This document shows, piece after piece, positions 10,685-47,571 of a stretch of DNA of 47,683 nucleotides. The stretch is taken from assembly GCA_016201275.1 (NCBI GenBank), contig JACQDB010000068.1:1-47683 (forward strand). Direction: 5' to 3'. Position numbers and translations under genes: made by a program. Source of the stretch: Acidobacteriota bacterium (GTDB lineage Bacteria; Acidobacteriota; Blastocatellia; UBA7656). The stretch's first letter is position 1. Each line of letters opens with the position of its first letter. A model generated the notes under the pieces. That model ran no database searches and was not told the origin of the DNA. It was given only the letters and a program-made list of their open reading frames with translations.

Positions 10685-12202
10685 ATGTGGATTAGAAAAG
10701 GAGATCGAGACGCGAAGAAGGGCGTGATTTCACCCGTCCCTACGCAGATTGTCTCGAACGAGGAATTTATTCCAAGACCGCAAACCGAAAAACAGAAGAA
10801 GGTCGAACATCTCATCGGCGAAATGTCCGACGTGCGCGCCAAAAAACTCGGCCTGTCGCGGCGCGCCTTCATGTCAACTTCGATGGGCATGGCGACCTGC
10901 TTTCTGGCGATGAACAAAACTTATGGCAAAGCCTTTGACGTGGAGGAAGTCGAGACTTGGGAAGCCGATTCATTTGAAAAGAAATTTCCCAAGAGCGAAT
11001 ACTTCATCATAGACGTGCAATCGCACTTCACCAACGGCTATGCCTTGCGCTTCCGCGAAATGGAATTCGCCAAAAACATGGGCTTTCAAAATTTGAAAGA
11101 CGATAAAGAATCCTACAGCTTCCACAACTTCGTCAAAGAGATGTACTTCGACAGCGAAACCGCTATGTGCGTGATCTCCGGCGTGCCGAGTATGGAAAAG
11201 AACAAGGACGCCAGCGGCAAAGTGTTGGAAGGCGCGGCGCGTGATAAAGGCGTGTTGCCCAGTTGGTTGATGGCGCAGAGCAAAAAGAAAATCAATGAAC
11301 TGGCCGGGTCGCAACGCGCTTTGAGTCAAGGCAACCTTGCGCCCAATCATTATTGGGACAAGGTCAACAACCGGATGGACAAGGCCGCGACGCTCGAACA
11401 AATGGAGCGCGAAGTGAAGCAGTACGGCATAAATTCATGGAAGTGGTATTGCCACTACGATCCCGGTCAATCGGGCGGCGGCTTTCAACTTGATGATGAC
11501 AATGCCATGTGGTTTTATGATCAGTCGCGCAAACTCGGTTTGAAACTCATCAGCACACACAAAGGTTTTTCGTATCAATCGGCGAAACTCGGTCATCTGG
11601 CCAATCCGAAAGATGTAGAGAAAGCGGCGCTGCAAAATCTCGATTTCAATTTCGTGGTCTATCATTCGGCGCTCAAACACGGGCCGAACGAAGGGGCGAA
11701 CTGGTTGGACAAAGATCACAACAACTATGACCCAACGACTGGCGATTTCGAGTGGCACCGCATACTGATGGACATGAAGAAACGCAATCCCAAGATGAAC
11801 AATGTCTATTGCGAAATCGGCAGTTTCTTCAATGTTTTGATTATTGCCGACCCGGTGTTGGCGATGCACGGCATAGGCAAGAACGTCAAAACCTATGGCT
11901 CCGATCACGTCGTCTGGGGCACCGATTGTTTGTGGTGGGGATCGCCGCAATGGGCGATTGAAGCCTTCAAGCGTTTTCAGATCAGCGACGAGTTGTGCGA
12001 AAAATTTGGTTATAAAAAACTCACCACCAAAGACAAAGCCAACATCTTCGGCTTGAACGCCGCACGGCTTTACAACGTAGATGTGAAAGCAAAACGCAAG
12101 GCCTTGCCGGGCGACACGCTGGAAAAATTGAAGGCCGAATACCTCGAGCGCGGCGGCCAACGCAGCAACGCCGCTTACGGCTGGGTGCGCGCCGACGATT
12201 AA
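10685..12202 (+). CDS. amidohydrolase-family metal-dependent hydrolase with a twin-arginine segment
   Basis: A 505-residue protein of the amidohydrolase (TIM-barrel, PF04909-type) family. [20 protein letters not shown] (residues 57-76) looks like a Tat signal, but it follows a 56-residue polar stretch containing [23 protein letters not shown] 10685 is backed by AAGGAG eight bases upstream. A start at Met47 would give a normal Tat N-region. The usual HxH of the barrel is Gln112-Ser-His114 (IIDVQSHF). Later ligand candidates are His292 (THKGF), His327 (VVYHSA) and Asp414 (WGTDCLWW). The reaction could be hydrolysis or decarboxylation, since the family includes decarboxylases. The next gene, 84 bases on, encodes a hexaheme cytochrome c, which suggests a shared extracytoplasmic role. 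The substrate is unknown. Confidence 0.85.
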
Positions 12203-12206
12203 TCGT

Positions 12207-12241
12207 GAGAAAGGGAGATGGGGAGAAAGGGAGAAGGGGAG
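12207..12241. repeat. purine 8-nt tandem repeat (GAGA..GG), left arm
   Basis: Four octamers and a partial one: GAGAAAGG, GAGATGGG, GAGAAAGG, GAGAAGGG, GAG. They start five bases after the amidohydrolase stop. The sequence is the complement of the pyrimidine octamers at 12347-12438, so the two tracts can pair across about 110 bases. Confidence 0.8.
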
Positions 12242-12286: not shown

Positions 12287-13480
12287 ATGGCGGTTAAAAA
12301 TATTTTCAAACAGAATCGTTCAGATGTTGATAAGCGAATCGGGAAATCTCCCCGTCTCCCTCACTCCCCATCTCCCCATCTCCCCGTCTCCCTCACTCCT
12401 CATCTCCCCGTCTCCCTCACTCCTCATCTCCCTTTCTCGACTGATCGCCTACGCGCCATCGTTCTCTGTGCGGCGGTTTTGCTTTTTACGTTTTTCGCGG
12501 TGAGCCGCATGGCTAGGGCGCAGCAAACGACATCATCGCCTACCGCAACGCCAGCGCCGCAACTCAATCCTGCCGCCTGGGGCAGCAATCACGCGGGCAA
12601 AGAGGTTCCCGAATTCGTCACTAGCGGCGAATGCTTGTTCTGTCATCGCAACGATGTCGGCACTACTTGGGGGAAGAATGCTCACGGCTTGACCATTGTG
12701 CAACGCGAAGACGCGCCGCAATTCAAAGAGATTCTACAAGGGCAATCGAAACTTGCGGCAACAGGCAAAGAGGTAGAATTTTTTTTCGGCAGTCGCCATC
12801 GCCTGCGCTTTTTGAAAAAGATCGGTTACGGCAAGTTCGCTCTTTTGAACGCGCAGGCAACGCTGGCGACGAACGCGAAAATCACTGGCTGGTTGAATGC
12901 CGACAATCCGACTTGGGACAAAGAGAAATTTGCTAATAGCTGTGCGGGTTGTCACACCACGGGCGTGGATGCCAAAACCAAAGCGTTCAGTTCATTCGGC
13001 CATGATTGTTATGCCTGTCACGGCGTCGTGGATTTGGAACACACCAACGATACGTCTTTGATTTGGCTTTCCAAAAAACGCAAGAGCGATGCGCTGGCGG
13101 TGACTTCGATTTGCGCGTCTTGTCATTTGCGCGAAGGGAAGTCGAAATCAACCGGCCTGCCGTACCCAAATAATTTTGTCGCCGGTGACAATCTGTTTCA
13201 AGATTTTCAAGTGGATTTTTCCCAAGCCGATAATGAATCTTTGAACCCCGGTGATCGTCACGTTTATCGCAATGTCCGTGACGTAGTGATGAATGGCAAG
13301 CAAGTGACTTGTTTGAATTGCCACGTCGTTCATGCCAATTCGAGTTCTAAACATCGGCTGACCGTGAAGACGCAAATCTGTAGCGATTGTCACGACACCG
13401 AAAAAAATATTTATAAACCCGCAACGCCTTACACCGTCAAAAGCGCGCTGTGCGAATACGACTCGGTAAAGATGAATTGA
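12287..13480 (+). CDS. hexaheme c-type cytochrome
   Basis: A 397-residue exported cytochrome with six CxxCH heme sites: CLFCH (116-120), CAGCH (219-223), CYACH (241-245), CASCH (276-280), CLNCH (342-346) and CSDCH (365-369). Residues about 57-77 (AIVLCAAVLLFTFFAV) form a signal or membrane anchor, so the hemes face the periplasm. The 50 residues before it are abnormal. They are translated from an 8-nt minisatellite and read as repeats of PHLPVSLT. No alternative start would keep the signal segment, so this extension is probably real protein or is trimmed. AGG of GCAGGTG upstream of ATG 12287 is only a weak ribosome binding site. It is paired with the exported amidohydrolase gene just upstream. 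Multiheme proteins of this kind carry electrons. The partner reaction is not visible. Confidence 0.9.
   Translation: MAVKNIFKQNRSDVDKRIGKSPRLPHSPSPHLPVSLTPHLPVSLTPHLPFSTDRLRAIVLCAAVLLFTFFAVSRMARAQQTTSSPTATPAPQLNPAAWGSNHAGKEVPEFVTSGECLFCHRNDVGTTWGKNAHGLTIVQREDAPQFKEILQGQSKLAATGKEVEFFFGSRHRLRFLKKIGYGKFALLNAQATLATNAKITGWLNADNPTWDKEKFANSCAGCHTTGVDAKTKAFSSFGHDCYACHGVVDLEHTNDTSLIWLSKKRKSDALAVTSICASCHLREGKSKSTGLPYPNNFVAGDNLFQDFQVDFSQADNESLNPGDRHVYRNVRDVVMNGKQVTCLNCHVVHANSSSKHRLTVKTQICSDCHDTEKNIYKPATPYTVKSALCEYDSVKMN
12347..12438. repeat. pyrimidine 8-nt tandem repeat inside the cytochrome N-terminus, right arm
   Basis: Eleven octamers plus four bases of the type TCTCCCCG, TCTCCCTC, ACTCCTCA. A 24-nt higher-order period (three octamers) keeps the reading frame and encodes LPVSLTPH twice. 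It is complementary to the purine octamers at 12207-12241, and ATCTCCCTTTCTC at its end exactly matches GAGAAAGGGAGAT at the start of the left arm. Confidence 0.85.
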
Positions 13481-19689: not shown

Positions 19690-19775
19690 TGTACGAGCGA
19701 CCCTGCGGTGGTCGCCCGTCGGTGAAAGCAACCTGATTTTCAGGAAGAAGCGACCACCGCAGGGTCGCCCGTACA
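19690..19775. repeat. palindromic element, family B copy 2
   Basis: Arms 19690-19715 (TGTACGAGCGACCCTGCGGT and onward) and 19750-19775 pair at 25 of 26 positions around a 34-nt loop. The arms are the family B core in the arrangement core - spacer - inverted core. It fills the gap between the two crotonase genes. Confidence 0.8.
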
Positions 19776-33993: not shown

Positions 33994-34407
33994 ATGACGA
34001 AACTTCTTGAAAAGGCTTTCAAACAGGCATCTAAGCTCCCCCTTGAGGAACAAAGGGCGATTGCTAAACGTTGGTTGCAAGAATTAGGAGAAAGAGATGC
34101 CGCAAATAAATTAGACAGCATCTTTGATAAACAAATAAAAGAACTACAGCGGTTTTTTCATTTAAGCGAAATGGAATCGGCTCGATTGTGTGGGCATCAA
34201 TGGATGCCTAATCTTGGGATGATGACAAAACTTTATGACATCAAAAAGTCTCTGGAAGCTTTGCTGAAACCCGATAAGATTGGCGAATGGTTAGCAACGC
34301 CCAATCCCTCGCTCGAAGGAAAAACTCCGCGAGAGGTTATTGCAAGCGGTGATGCAGCGCGTGTTTTGGAAGAACTCGCGGCAGTCGAGTGGGGCGGACA
34401 TAATTGA
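33994..34407 (+). CDS. DUF2384 (Xre/MbcA/ParS-type) antitoxin with extra N-terminal helix module
   Basis: A 137-residue protein. Its C-terminal half (residues about 85-132, KPDKIGEWLATPNPSLEGKT and PREVIASGDAARVLEELA) is the DUF2384 toxin-binding domain that neutralises RES-domain toxins. The first 30 residues, MTKLLEKAFKQASKLPLEEQ and on, resemble a short helical module often seen as small stand-alone proteins with a pattern of acidic and basic residues. The middle has a helix-turn-helix-like stretch (LSEMESARLCGHQWMPNLGM). It overlaps the toxin gene by four bases (TTGA), the standard coupled order of antitoxin then toxin. The gene pair is visibly more AT-rich than its neighbours and may have been acquired. 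It probably autoregulates, as the family does. Confidence 0.85.
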   Translation: MTKLLEKAFKQASKLPLEEQRAIAKRWLQELGERDAANKLDSIFDKQIKELQRFFHLSEMESARLCGHQWMPNLGMMTKLYDIKKSLEALLKPDKIGEWLATPNPSLEGKTPREVIASGDAARVLEELAAVEWGGHN

Positions 34408-34976
34408 AGCCGACTCTTGAGCAATGCATAAAAAATGCTTTGAGTTTGGCGACCTCGTTTAAGGGCGTGTGCTTCAGAGTTCTTTCCCAGCGGTTTGCCA
34501 CGCAAAAAGATGCGCTTTCTGCTAAAGGCAGCATAATTAAGGGTGGGAGATTTAATTTCAAAGGCAACTTTGGCGTTCTCTACTTGTCTTGTGATTCGCA
34601 TACTTGCTTGGAAGAATCAACGCGCACTTCACAGAAACGCGCCATTACTGTTGCTAATGAATTGCCCAAAACTGTTGTAGGGATTGAGGTGAAATTATCC
34701 AAGGTGTTGGATTTAACGGACGCCAAGATGAGAAGAAGGCTTGGTATCAAGTATTCAGATTTGACAAAAACGGATTGGGAGAAGATTCAAAATAACGGGC
34801 AAGAAGCGATTACTCAAGTGATAGGAAGACTCGCAGGGCAATCAGGTTTTGAAGCCTTGCTAGTTCCTTCTTCAGTTTGGAGAGGAAAGAATCTGGATAT
34901 TTTCATAGATAGATTGAGAAAGACATCAAAACTGACCTTAATCAATTCACAAGCTTTCCCGAAAAGACGACGATGA
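34404..34976 (+). CDS. RES-domain toxin
   Basis: A 190-residue RES-family toxin. RES toxins of the MbcT/ParT type act on NAD+ or ADP-ribosylate targets, so free toxin stops growth. Conserved elements are CFRVLSQRFA, GGRFNFKGNFGVLYLS (the conserved Arg) and TCLEESTR (the conserved Glu), then a late Ser near ALLVPSSVWRG. The start is TTG at 34404, overlapping the antitoxin stop codon (TTGA). There is no ATG near, and a TTG may keep toxin synthesis below antitoxin. It is a Type II toxin-antitoxin system placed between the etf operon and the acyl-CoA dehydrogenase pair. Confidence 0.87.
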   Translation: MKPTLEQCIKNALSLATSFKGVCFRVLSQRFATQKDALSAKGSIIKGGRFNFKGNFGVLYLSCDSHTCLEESTRTSQKRAITVANELPKTVVGIEVKLSKVLDLTDAKMRRRLGIKYSDLTKTDWEKIQNNGQEAITQVIGRLAGQSGFEALLVPSSVWRGKNLDIFIDRLRKTSKLTLINSQAFPKRRR

Positions 34977-34992
34977 TGGATGTTGCCGAGAT

Positions 34993-35066
34993 GTAGAACA
35001 GGCTGCCAGCCTGTTTACGTTCTGAGACGAATGAAAACGCATCAGCAGGCTGCCAGCCTGCTCTAC
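34993..35066. repeat. inverted repeat of self-complementary CAGGCTGCCAGCCTG units
   Basis: GTAGAACAGGCTGCCAGCCT (arm 34993-35015) and its counterpart (35044-35066, ending CAGCCTGCTCTAC) pair with three mismatches. Each contains the inner palindrome CAGGCTG-CC-AGCCTG. It fills the 108-base gap between the toxin and the acyl-CoA dehydrogenase gene. Confidence 0.7.
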
Positions 35067-35084
35067 CTTTACAGAGGAGAAGAT

Positions 35085-36269
35085 ATGGATTTGAATTTAT
35101 CGCCTGAAGAAGAAAAATTTCGCGATGAATGTCGTGCGTGGCTGGCGGCCAATGTGCCGGAGCCGTTTGCTGGCAAGGGCTTGAACGAAGAAGAGAATGC
35201 CGAGGTCGTTGACTATTTGAAAGCCTGGCAGAAGAAAGTTTTTGATGGCGGCTGGGCGGGTATCTCGTGGCCGAAAGCCTATGGCGGACGCGGCGCAAAG
35301 CTGATCGAACAGGCTATCTTTCAAGAGGAATGGGCGAAAGCCGATGCGCCTATGTTAATCAACGTGCTGGGGCTTTCGTTGATTGGCCCGACGATTATTG
35401 CGGTTGGCACAGAAGCACAGAAGCAGCGCTTTCTGCCCAAGATTCTTTCCGGCGAAGAAATTTGGTGTCAGGGATTTTCTGAACCAAACGCTGGCAGCGA
35501 TGTGGCCGGACTGGGCACCAAAGCGATACGCGATGGCGATGACTTCATCATCAACGGCCAGAAAATTTGGACGAGCCTGGCGCACGTTTCCGATTGGTGT
35601 TTGTTGTTGGTTCGTACAGACTTTGAAGCGCCCAAACACAAAGGCATCACCGCGCTGTTGGTGGATATGCACAGCGCTGGCGTGGCGGTGCGTCCCTTGC
35701 GGCAAATGACCGGCGATTCAGGATTCAACGAAGTCTTCTTCTCGAACGTGCGCGTGCCAGTGGCCAACGTCTTGGGCGAAATCAATAAAGGCTGGCACAC
35801 GGCGATTGCCACCTTGATGAACGAGCGCGCCAATCTAGGCGCAGGCGTTTACGTAGGCATCAAGCGCGCTTTGGATGCGTTGATCGAGCGGTCGCACCAC
35901 ATCAATCGCGGCGGTCGTCCATCGGCGCAAGACCCGGTGATTCGTCAGAAAATCGCCCAGGCTTATCTGGAACTGGAAATCTTCAAACTCAACAGCAACC
36001 GCGCTCTGAGCAAGATGAGCAAGTCGGCAGTGCCGGGACCGGAAGGCTCGATCTTGAAAATTTTCTGGAGCGAGTTGAACCAGCGCGTGCAGCAAACCGC
36101 TATGGAAGCGCTAGGGACTTATGGTCAGTTGCAGGATTTCGACGAGGGCAAATGGGTGTACGGCTATTTGCGCTCTCGCGGCAATACCATTGAAGCCGGC
36201 ACCAGCGAAATTCAACGCAACATCGTGGCCGAGCGCGTTCTCGGTTTGCCCAAGAGTTATCAAAGTTAG
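35085..36269 (+). CDS. acyl-CoA dehydrogenase, catalytic-type subunit of an adjacent pair
   Basis: A 394-residue acyl-CoA dehydrogenase. Signature blocks: QGFSEPNAGSDVAGL (FAD contact), GQKIWTSLAHVSDWC, and at the C-terminus GNTIEAGTSEIQRNIVAERV with Glu370 at the catalytic-base position of medium-chain enzymes (YEGTSQIQ). Length is standard. ATG 35085 (MDLNLSPEEEKFRDECR) has AGAGGAGAAG upstream. A much longer frame from 34980 would be translated repeat sequence and is rejected. The next gene, 101 bases on, encodes a second dehydrogenase lacking this glutamate, so the two may form a heteromer. The TAG stop lies inside a heptamer repeat. Electrons would go to the ETF encoded 4 kb upstream. Confidence 0.93.
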   Translation: MDLNLSPEEEKFRDECRAWLAANVPEPFAGKGLNEEENAEVVDYLKAWQKKVFDGGWAGISWPKAYGGRGAKLIEQAIFQEEWAKADAPMLINVLGLSLIGPTIIAVGTEAQKQRFLPKILSGEEIWCQGFSEPNAGSDVAGLGTKAIRDGDDFIINGQKIWTSLAHVSDWCLLLVRTDFEAPKHKGITALLVDMHSAGVAVRPLRQMTGDSGFNEVFFSNVRVPVANVLGEINKGWHTAIATLMNERANLGAGVYVGIKRALDALIERSHHINRGGRPSAQDPVIRQKIAQAYLELEIFKLNSNRALSKMSKSAVPGPEGSILKIFWSELNQRVQQTAMEALGTYGQLQDFDEGKWVYGYLRSRGNTIEAGTSEIQRNIVAERVLGLPKSYQS

Positions 36270-36366
36270 TCCTTAGTCCCTAGTCCTTAGTCCTTGGTTT
36301 TGTTTGCGACAGAACTGGGCGACGGGGTTGGGGACTAGGGACTAAGGACTAGGGACTAAGGACTAA
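36266..36366. repeat. heptamer inverted repeat occupying the whole junction between two dehydrogenase genes
   Basis: Left arm 36266-36293 (TTAGTCCTTAGTCCCTAGTC and on) and right arm 36339-36366 are perfect 28-nt reverse complements made of 7-nt units (GGACTAA/GGACTAG). The TAG stop of the first gene (36267-36269) is in the left arm. The right arm ends four bases before the next ATG and contains AAGGA, the likely ribosome binding site. Confidence 0.88.
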
Positions 36367-36370
36367 AATT

Positions 36371-37489
36371 ATGGACTTCGATTTAAGTAAACCGCAAAAA
36401 CTATTGCAGGAATCTGCGAAAACCTTTTTTTCGCGAGAGTGTTCGCCGGAGCGCGTGCGCGAATTGATGGCGACCGAGACGGCGCACGATGAAGCGTTGT
36501 GGCGCGCCATGGCCGATCAGGGCTGGACGGGTTTGATTGTGCCGGAAGCATATGGTGGCCTGGGTTTGGGCTTGGTCGAGCTTGCCGTAGTGGTTGAAGA
36601 GATGGGGCGAGCCAATTTACCGGGCGCATTTATTTCGACTTTGTGGGCGGCGGCGTTGATGGAACGCGCCGGAAGCGAAGCGCAGAAAGCCGAATACCTC
36701 GATGCCATTTCGGCTGGCGAACTGAAAGCCACCGTAGCCTTGTTGGAAGCGAGCGCCGATTGGCATCCGGCGGCGGTGCAATTGCGCGCAGAGGTCGAAG
36801 GGCAAGGCTATCGTTTGAACGGGCGCAAAGAGTTTGTCACTGATGCGGCGATAGCCGATGTGATTTTGGTGGCGGCGCGAACGAGCGGCGGATTGATTAT
36901 CCTGGTGGTGAAAAAAGACAGCGCCGGAGTCACCATCACAGAGACACCGGCGATGGATGCGACGCGCAAACTTTACACCGTGGAATTTCAAGAGGCGCAC
37001 ATTGAAGCGGCGCTCACGAACAAGGTGAAAGACGCCTTGGAATATTCGATGGGCGTTGCCGCGATTGCTTTGTCAGCGGAGATGCTGGGCGGTATGCAGT
37101 GGACGCTGGACACCACGGTTGAATATGCCAAGACGCGTTTGCAATTCGGTCGCCCGATAGGCACCTATCAAGCCGTGCAACATCATTGCGCCGATATGTT
37201 ATTGATGACCGAGAGTTCGCGTTCGGCGGTTTATTATGCCGCGTATGCGTTATCCGAAAAAGATTCGATGGCGCGCCACGCGGTCTCTATCGCCAAGGCC
37301 TATTGTTCGGACGCGGCGCGTGAAGTTGGCAATCTGGGCATTCAATGTCACGGCGGCATAGGTTTTACCTGGGAACACAATCTGCACCTGTACTACAAAC
37401 GCGCCAAGTCTTCTGAAATCATGTTGGGCGACGCGACCTATCACCGCGAAGAACTGGCGCGTCTGGTGATTGACCGGGCGGCGGATTAA
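36371..37489 (+). CDS. acyl-CoA dehydrogenase, likely non-catalytic partner subunit
   Basis: A 372-residue acyl-CoA dehydrogenase homologue. The N-terminal helical domain begins MDFDLSKPQKLLQESAKTFF and the C-terminal domain has TRLQFGRPIGTYQAVQHHCA and GIQCHGGIGFTWEHNLHLYY. At the position of the catalytic Glu in YEGTSQIQ it reads SSEIMLGDATYHR, with Leu in that place. Pairs like this (one subunit with and one without the base) are known as alpha2beta2 heterotetramers for steroid side-chain oxidation in Actinobacteria. ATG 36371 is preceded by AAGGA located in the heptamer repeat. Together with 35085-36269 it is probably one enzyme; the assembly is inferred. Confidence 0.9.
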   Translation: MDFDLSKPQKLLQESAKTFFSRECSPERVRELMATETAHDEALWRAMADQGWTGLIVPEAYGGLGLGLVELAVVVEEMGRANLPGAFISTLWAAALMERAGSEAQKAEYLDAISAGELKATVALLEASADWHPAAVQLRAEVEGQGYRLNGRKEFVTDAAIADVILVAARTSGGLIILVVKKDSAGVTITETPAMDATRKLYTVEFQEAHIEAALTNKVKDALEYSMGVAAIALSAEMLGGMQWTLDTTVEYAKTRLQFGRPIGTYQAVQHHCADMLLMTESSRSAVYYAAYALSEKDSMARHAVSIAKAYCSDAAREVGNLGIQCHGGIGFTWEHNLHLYYKRAKSSEIMLGDATYHREELARLVIDRAAD

Positions 37490-37514: not shown

Positions 37515-37590
37515 CATCACGAAGAACCCCAAGAACACCAAAGCGATTAACATAATTTCTAGCTTCGTGTTTTTGGGGTTCTTCGTGGTG
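37515..37590. repeat. imperfect 24-bp inverted repeat with short-period units
   Basis: Left arm 37515-37538 (CATCACGAAGAACCCCAAGA and on) and right arm 37567-37590 match at 22 of 24 positions with a 28-nt loop. The text is of the AAGAACCCCAAGAACACCAA kind with about 7-nt spacing of the AA/CC steps. It fills most of the gap between the dehydrogenase and the ankyrin-like gene. Confidence 0.75.
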
Positions 37591-47309: not shown

Positions 47310-47486
47310 AAGTGCTGACGACGAAAGCCAGACGCCGGCACTCGCCTTATGCAGCCGCCTAACCGCTATCTTGAAAGGACGCTTTTGGGATCGTCTAAAC
47401 CTCAATTTATCAGGCGGAGCGTTTATAAGTTCACGAGGTGCTGATAGGGAAGTAAAAGACGGGTGAACCGCTTAGGTTTGTGGAGC

Positions 47487-47551
47487 AAATAAAGTGCAAC
47501 CCTGTACGGGCGACCACCGCAGGGTCGCCCGTACAGGGTTGCACTTTATTT
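47487..47551. repeat. palindromic element, family B copy 4, perfect 29-bp stem
   Basis: Arms 47487-47515 (AAATAAAGTGCAACCCTGTA and on to CGGGCGACC) and 47523-47551 are exact reverse complements with a 7-nt loop ACCGCAG. TCATCCATAATCC follows, matching the outer arm of copy 1. This is the most intact copy in the window. Confidence 0.9.
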
Positions 47552-47571
47552 CATCCATAATCCTTAGAATA

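Follow-up and report, generated by a model that had tools for sequence, protein, structure and literature searches.

Repeats of heptamers are known from the gaps between bacterial genes, to our knowledge without an agreed function. The accessible text of one survey describes GGGAATC heptamers of Xanthomonas and GGGGA(C/T)T heptamers of Nostoc, which are tandem, intergenic and located mostly between aligned ORFs (Rehm 2015, PMC4692102). Two Xanthomonas genomes contained 70 and 75 inverted heptamer pairs; for the heptamers, a stop codon is frequently no more than 50 nt away. According to the same part of that paper, the repeats are on average 160 nt from the downstream ORF, with 16% of them in convergent and 7-8% in divergent arrangement, and quadruplexes are the focus. 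Heptamers are also found in Beggiatoaceae, where TAACTGA direct repeats end a few nucleotides before start codons and a translational role was proposed (MacGregor 2015, PMC4679880). In the available portion of the latter paper, these repeats have stops in all frames in one orientation, include one inverted case in 170 sets and are given no particular predicted RNA structure. REP doublets, as far as the available pages of Bertels and Rainey 2011 (PMC3116915) describe them, are randomly distributed in extragenic space.

Here, the copies of one heptamer family can be assigned to a defined location, where the stop of one gene meets the start of the next in the same direction. Its copy in the window (the whole stretch of 47,683 nt analysed here, from an Acidobacteriota bacterium of the Blastocatellia) separates two acyl-CoA dehydrogenase genes, ACAD1 and ACAD2.

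Structure of the element in the window

The ACAD1-ACAD2 gap of 101 nt is nearly filled by the heptamers and the loop between them (Table 1). The products of both genes matched acyl-CoA dehydrogenase families in profile comparison. The true start of ACAD1 may lie further in, at 35031 according to the codon-usage caller; for ACAD2, the alignment with homologues of relatives begins at residue 1. The end motif of ACAD1 has a glutamate (IEAGTSEIQ) and its ACAD2 counterpart is RAKSSEIMFGD (34980-37489); ACAD2 may be the non-catalytic partner in a heteromer.

Table 1. Features of the ACAD1-ACAD2 junction in the window
Feature	Position	Strand	Basis or remark
ACAD1, upstream gene, acyl-CoA dehydrogenase	34980..36269	+	ORF; Pfam N, M and C domains
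TAG stop of ACAD1, in first heptamer of left arm	36267..36269	+	sequence, ORF
Left arm, TTAGTCC-type heptamers	36266..36298	+	sequence, repeat finder
Loop between arms	36299..36333	+	sequence unlike loops of other copies displayed; no sigma-70-type promoter-like site
Right arm, GGACTAR heptamers	36334..36366	+	sequence, repeat finder
AAGGA, SD-like, buried in predicted stem	36358..36362	+	sequence, fold
ACAD2, downstream gene, acyl-CoA dehydrogenase	36371..37489	+	ORF, family match

An earlier note on this DNA had placed the stop codon of ACAD1 in the left arm and AAGGA in the right arm, and had described 28-nt arms that pair perfectly; both descriptions were borne out. The outer 28 nt of the arms (36266-36293 and 36339-36366, 45 nt apart) match perfectly, and over their whole length of 33 nt each the repeat finder gave 94% complementarity. 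With the perfect arms paired, AAGGA is opposite 36270-36274, the bases directly 3' of the stop. Its location upstream of the next ATG (36371-36373) was confirmed, at a distance of 8 nt. The pattern GGACTARGGACTA with at most two mismatches had seven matches in the window, all at this junction, compared with 0.51 expected, and at least seven were reached in 0 of 100 shuffles. RNA folding of 36240-36400 gave -77.9 kcal/mol (z = -8.96), a stability equalled in 0 of 200 shuffles.

Several known types of element were rejected for this site. A known RNA family found no support in the window, where Rfam gave no match above the gathering score. The search for intrinsic terminators (a stem followed by a T run) returned two sites, both at 36392-36419 inside ACAD2, and none on the element. 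A sigma-70 promoter in the loop was also rejected: the search, limited to sigma-70-type promoter-like sites, found none at 36100-36500, so that no candidate of this type appeared for the separate loop promoter named by the earlier note as evidence against its model.

Other structures of the window were noticed as well. Genes for an Xre/MbcA/ParS-type antitoxin and a RES-domain protein (33994-34976) directly precede ACAD1, the RES stop being at 34976 and the listed ACAD1 ORF start at 34980. A second stem is located behind the ACAD pair, as an inverted repeat beginning with CACGAAGAAC at 37518-37587, 28 nt past the ACAD2 stop. Octamer arrays in opposite orientation (GGGAGAAG and CTCCCCAT types; 12207-12241 and 12346-12432) start about 5 nt past a stop at 12202, and the next gene is called from 12509, beyond the second array. 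Further palindromes occur at 1699-1751, 2728-2778, 19690-19775 and 47474-47564; some have look-alikes in the genome sample, and they are not tied to stop-start junctions.

A dispersed family with inverted architecture

The window element is one copy of a dispersed hairpin-forming repeat family. In the 6.84-Mb genome, GGACTARGGACTA occurred 133 times and the same pattern read backwards 0 times. In the common plan, TTAGTCC-type heptamers are followed by a short variable loop and then by GGACTAR-type heptamers, with about two to six units on each side; among the copies displayed, the arms are constant and the loops differ. Many inverted pairs are ordered TAGTC...GACTA (spacers of 15-75 nt), and none had the opposite order, GACTA...TAGTC, at spacers of 10-40 nt. 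As 7 is coprime to 3, any reading frame that enters a series of units comes to a stop codon within 21 nt; these stops are TAG on one strand and TAA on the other.

We examined 57 arrays or array pairs from among the matches listed (50 from two listings and seven from inverted-pair searches), including nine one-sided arrays and a few with TGACTA or CGACTA units. Two of them at contig ends, L006 and L063:8894-8981, were unscorable, leaving 55 scored elements. The strict tandem scan undercounts arrays with varying units and misses, for example, the one at 12207. Second small palindromes (ttgaaactggctcctgtagccggtttcaag and variants) are present in the loops of L001, L017, L028, L058, L064, L068, L070 and L075, a repeat nested in a repeat. 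Some elements are clustered within a few kb, as in L063 (C82:24-32 kb), L058 (C62:63-71 kb) and L065 (C91:41-46 kb).

From the 55, we hand-picked 39 elements in which neither codon was more than about 25 nt away; L058:5874, L069:1543, L143 and L146 would also qualify but were left out, and the first ATG after the array was taken in place of the caller's start for L035, L050, L058:7279 and L070. The two arms of one element were more complementary to each other than swapped arms (0.775 versus 0.710, sd 0.012; 0 of 500 as high), which agrees with pairing being maintained, whether through selection or through copying. At the variable seventh base alone the signal was weak (0.547 for own and 0.454 for swapped arms; 19 of 2000 shuffles as high).

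The unit is all but confined to this genome. Of 29 genomes, two contained its trimer, this one 55 times and G019 three times; in G019, the forward matches may be due to chance because the backwards control scores 12, and in G003 this control scores 1. A heptamer unit common to the whole family of relatives was rejected on the basis of this distribution. With respect to mobility, direct repeats of k = 3, 4 or 5 flank 0 of the 39 elements, and those of k = 2 flank seven (swapped mean 4.1, maximum 11); a mobile element with target-site duplication was therefore rejected. So was a RAYT-driven REPIN, since the loci of the eight Y1_Tnp matches in the genome contain no GGACTA dimers. The arms are heptamer arrays, not REP palindromes.

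Location between co-directional genes

All 55 scorable elements, drawn from among the matches listed, lie between co-directional genes, compared with 186 of 225 neighbouring pairs (83%; p = 3e-5). Genes were called with a codon-usage caller made for this analysis, and the base rate comes from a 308-kb sample of the same genome. The stop codon is within -15 to +12 nt of the array in 44/55 elements and the start codon within -10 to +12 nt in 38/55; both are within 15 nt in 32/55, and the gap remaining without the element is at most 25 nt in 37/55. Co-directional gaps as short as this (<=25 nt) were 46 of 225 gaps in the 308-kb sample and 0.5% of its intergenic bases. Of the 17 non-periodic inverted repeats in co-directional gaps of the sample, none had both genes within 25 nt. 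Typed neighbours (20 in number) include release factor 1, aspartokinase with homoserine dehydrogenase, UvrC and an RND pump. The earlier note had suggested coupling of the two dehydrogenase subunits; a feature specific to this gene pair was not borne out, the same element being located at junctions of unrelated genes. A gene junction would be a tolerable place for this unit because it carries TAG on one strand and the SD-like AAGGA on the other.

G003 and G002 also have inverted repeats of short period, built from many different units. Among the 25 scored in G003, 16 were co-directional, six convergent, two divergent and one inside a gene; the 20 scored in G002 comprised 16 co-directional, two convergent and two divergent ones. 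Compared with random placement at given gap and repeat length, abutment showed no excess in three genomes (24 of 65 observed; random mean 21.0, maximum 26), and the stop side was within 10 nt in 30 of the 65 inverted repeats (random mean 22.6, maximum 32). Because of these exceptions and the random-placement result, the strict co-directional rule holds for the GGACTAR family of this genome and not for all such repeats.

Predicted accessibility of the ribosome binding site

The earlier note had proposed that the ribosome binding site of the downstream gene is locked in the stem until ribosomes finishing the upstream gene open it. For the window element (L031), burial and a partial opening were predicted: the unpaired probability of the SD window rose from 0.01 in the free RNA to 0.44 with a ribosome over the stop. 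Burial was also predicted more widely, the SD window being less than 0.3 unpaired in 23 of 39 elements versus 10 of the 41 co-directional gaps (60-180 nt) that served as controls (p = 0.002). The mean over the 39 elements changed from 0.27 to 0.40 with the ribosome, compared with 0.42 in the 41 control gaps. However, a predicted gain of more than 0.3 upon placement of the ribosome was limited to 7/39 elements, which speaks against coupling; perhaps re-pairing in shifted heptamer registers is responsible. SD-like motifs were slightly commoner at the elements (26/39) than at control gaps (23/41), and GGA was present within SD range in 34/39.

The coupled expression suggested in the earlier note is thus consistent with the geometry, the predicted burial and the partial opening at this junction, but few similar elements gain accessibility and arms in relatives lack stop or SD. 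In the ACAD gap of relatives, arms occur without stop or SD, and several gaps have the SD-like stretch outside the stem or have none. The lock is possible at the ACAD junction, yet it is not the common denominator, because gains are few and the SD-like stretch is outside the stem or absent in several relatives. The common denominator is a stem with the stop and start codons at its feet, and the supply of stop and SD is a property of the unit of this genome.

Orthologous junctions in related genomes

Four junctions (ACAD, DUF1385-prfA, hom-lysC and DUF1844-MBL) were compared in up to 28 relatives, of which G003 and G001 belong to the family of the window. At the ACAD junction, 7 of 13 relatives have inverted repeats, of differing units, that are significant in comparison with shuffles. 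Their units are of the CCAAGTA type in G002 (extending to 33 nt before the start), the AAACTG type in G003 and the CTTTGCG type in G004 and G006, which are of one genus, as well as TATCAAC in G019, AACCACC in G027 and CAGCACT in G015. The other relatives have a one-sided array (G009), a weak tandem stretch (G013), gaps of 20 and 27 nt (G023 and G001, respectively) or a long gap without an array (G005 and G010). The remaining three junctions have either a tight gap or an inverted repeat that begins a few nucleotides past the stop and ends shortly before the start, in most cases built from units other than GGACTAR; long gaps with one-sided arrays or none were found as well. One-sided arrays at prfA occur in G006 and G019. 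The upstream partner at the MBL junction is only 28-51% identical outside this genome.

Spanning repeats, defined by a stop side of at most 15 nt and a start side of at most 25 nt, were present at 17 of 51 orthologous junctions (6/13, 4/15, 3/5 and 4/18) versus 24 of the 621 co-directional gaps sampled from three genomes; the Fisher p of 2e-10 is not to be taken literally because the junctions were picked for the element in this genome and the relatives share ancestry. For the base rate, only gaps of 45-250 nt were able to score, and orthologous gaps were scored up to 400 nt. The junction counts leave out the prfA gap of G005 (Ns), a second MBL match in G001 and both ACAD matches in G011.

ACAD pairs were also surveyed in the best 80 of 387 loci, some of them from the same genomes as the comparison of 13 relatives. 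Among these best 80, ACAD1 was upstream of ACAD2 in 79 and the gap was shorter than 45 nt in 52 (median 11 nt). A significant inverted repeat was found in 13, of which 11 were spanning and eight had tandem units; the others of the 80 were 12 long gaps with neither, one with a tandem repeat only, one gap above 400 nt and one locus without the upstream partner. Around 16 ACAD inverted repeats, the flanks left amounted to a median of 14 nt, compared with the median of 11 nt for the 52 short gaps; such sizes would fit insertion into a short ancestral gap. Comparison of 42 pairs of the ACAD stem between G004 and G006 gave 27 that were the same, five one-sided changes, three compensatory, four broken and three gapped, which may be read as mild support for structure. 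At L277, the ACAD gap holds a composite stem of two heptamer units in series (GTCAGTT type outside, CTTCGTA type inside). GACTA-containing units (CGACTAC and TGACTAC types) are present at the prfA loci L202, L204, L209 and L215, and these may reflect slow drift of one old array instead of independent insertions.

Possible function and origin

The family, its position, its inverted architecture and the recurrence of stems at orthologous junctions are direct observations. Our preferred but tentative reading, to which we assign a probability of about 0.45, is that these operon-junction hairpins hold stop and start at the feet of one stem and so tie translation of the downstream gene to that of the upstream gene; insertion as the origin of the hairpins and translational coupling as their effect are both inferred. 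In the predicted fold, stop and start would stand at the two feet with about 100 nt between them looped out. The downstream gene would be translated mainly when the upstream gene is, through a terminating ribosome that opens the SD, termination-reinitiation across the stem foot, or both. The stem would keep stop and start near each other, and the resulting dependence of the downstream gene may be the reason that such repeats persist in operons. On the other hand, insertion into a gap that was short beforehand would produce equal geometry without function.

Nearly as likely as coupling is that the elements are tolerated selfish repeats, REPIN- or MITE-like and non-autonomous, which survive where they are least harmful and bring the host no benefit. 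Dispersed copies with constant arms and variable loops, a unit nearly confined to one genome (trimer in 2/29) and the presence of several unrelated families per genome would all be expected of such repeats, and the ACAD flank sums (median 14, 16 cases) match the short gaps elsewhere (median 11, n = 52), as plain insertion gives. Non-periodic inverted repeats at the prfA junction of G008 and the MBL junction of G028 and G019 point in the same direction. However, tight junctions make up 0.5% of intergenic bases and would yet be the site of 37/55 elements, 0/55 elements are in divergent or convergent gaps, stems recur at the same junctions in relatives, and no mobilising enzyme was linked to the copies (0 GGACTA dimers in the eight Y1 transposase loci). 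A rather unlikely alternative is an insulator, i.e. a ribosome termination structure that blocks re-initiation so that the downstream gene starts afresh from the SD of the arm. A very stable stem starting at the stop codon and GGA within SD range in 34/39 elements would suit this, and strong structure directly after stop codons is described, in the available part of Chemla 2020 (PMC7518266), as lowering re-initiation, a sign opposite to bridging. The same pages report such structures as depleted where re-initiation is useful, principally in operons, and here the stem that would insulate is also predicted to bury the SD (less than 0.3 unpaired in 23/39), which should impede fresh initiation too.

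A role in transcript processing or REP-like 3'-end protection, with the stem either making the upstream message more stable or serving as a mark for cleavage, appears less probable still. The stop side abuts in 44/55 elements, and several arrays of G002 and G003 are close to the stop in convergent pairs too; but the start side abuts as well in 38/55, and the window element has no terminator-like site. We regard as very improbable the narrow form of the earlier proposal, a dedicated lock evolved to match expression of the two ACAD subunits. It would draw on the geometry with its predicted opening from 0.01 to 0.44 and on the gene order kept in 79 of the best 80 of 387 loci, whereas the gap is below 45 nt in 52 of these best 80, the SD is outside the arm in several relatives, and the same element stands at unrelated junctions such as those of release factor 1, aspartokinase and UvrC.

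A wider form of the coupling reading, which we consider unlikely, is that tight operon junctions of Blastocatellia have been invaded repeatedly by hairpins of unrelated short-period arrays, which are kept since any stem between stop and start works. The same heptamer might have been added to both ends of a break by templated addition, and the constant arm order and random loops would thereby be explained. If repeated invasion were true, these hairpins would amount to a class of operon spacer that does not depend on sequence, with structure maintaining it and genome-specific heptamer families renewing it. The findings suggest a way for operon spacing to widen from about 10 to 100 nt with the genes kept together. 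Moreover, the same junction with no stem, one unit or an unrelated unit in relatives offers natural experiments on whether coupling is preserved, blocked or unaffected.

Comparison with known systems

The inverted form between co-directional genes recalls the attC sites of integrons, which have conserved core sites at both ends and form cassette arrays with an integrase. The ends here are heptamers, and the typed neighbours include housekeeping genes. With REPINs, as presented in the available part of Bertels and Rainey 2011 (PMC3116915), the family shares two inverted repeated arms with a spacer, dispersal and the ability to form hairpins; it differs in that the arms are heptamer arrays, no transposase was found beside the copies and the copies are at gene junctions.

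The elements resemble the ribosome termination structures of Chemla 2020 (PMC7518266) in having a stable structure directly past the stop (array within -15 to +12 nt in 44/55). In the accessible text, the latter are defined by folding energy and not by repeats, and a stem reaching the next start is not required. Coupling by RNA unfolding, as treated in the available sections of Brown and Wade 2025 (PMC12548453), also involves a downstream RBS in a stem that an upstream ribosome can open, which is only predicted here, and the spacing of 101 nt exceeds that of most coupled pairs described there.

Part of this pattern is already known from the accessible texts, namely inverted heptamers between aligned genes in Xanthomonas, heptamers before starts in Beggiatoaceae and coupling by RNA unfolding. 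Our literature search, which extended to few subscription papers, returned none that describes stop-start junctions filled by inverted heptamer arrays, or arrays of this kind in Acidobacteriota. Neither the placement from stop to start nor the repeated presence, at orthologous junctions, of stems with differing units was found in the literature searched.

The TAACTGA repeats of Beggiatoaceae, as far as the available part of their description goes, are like GGACTAR in being heptamers near start codons with stops in the frames, but they are direct repeats and the GGACTAR arrays are inverted. The closest class is that of Rehm 2015 (PMC4692102), which in its accessible text likewise has tandem 7-nt intergenic units, two arrays in convergent orientation and a preference for aligned ORFs. 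GGACTAR copies with R = G read GGGACTA and are close in kind to those units; by eye, they give GGG tracts, for example at L063 1503-1536, and most arms are mixed with GGACTAA. Compared with what that text describes, both sides of the element usually abut the neighbouring genes here, 0/55 elements are outside co-directional gaps, most arms mix GGACTAA and GGACTAG, and orthologous junctions repeatedly carry stems built from unrelated units.
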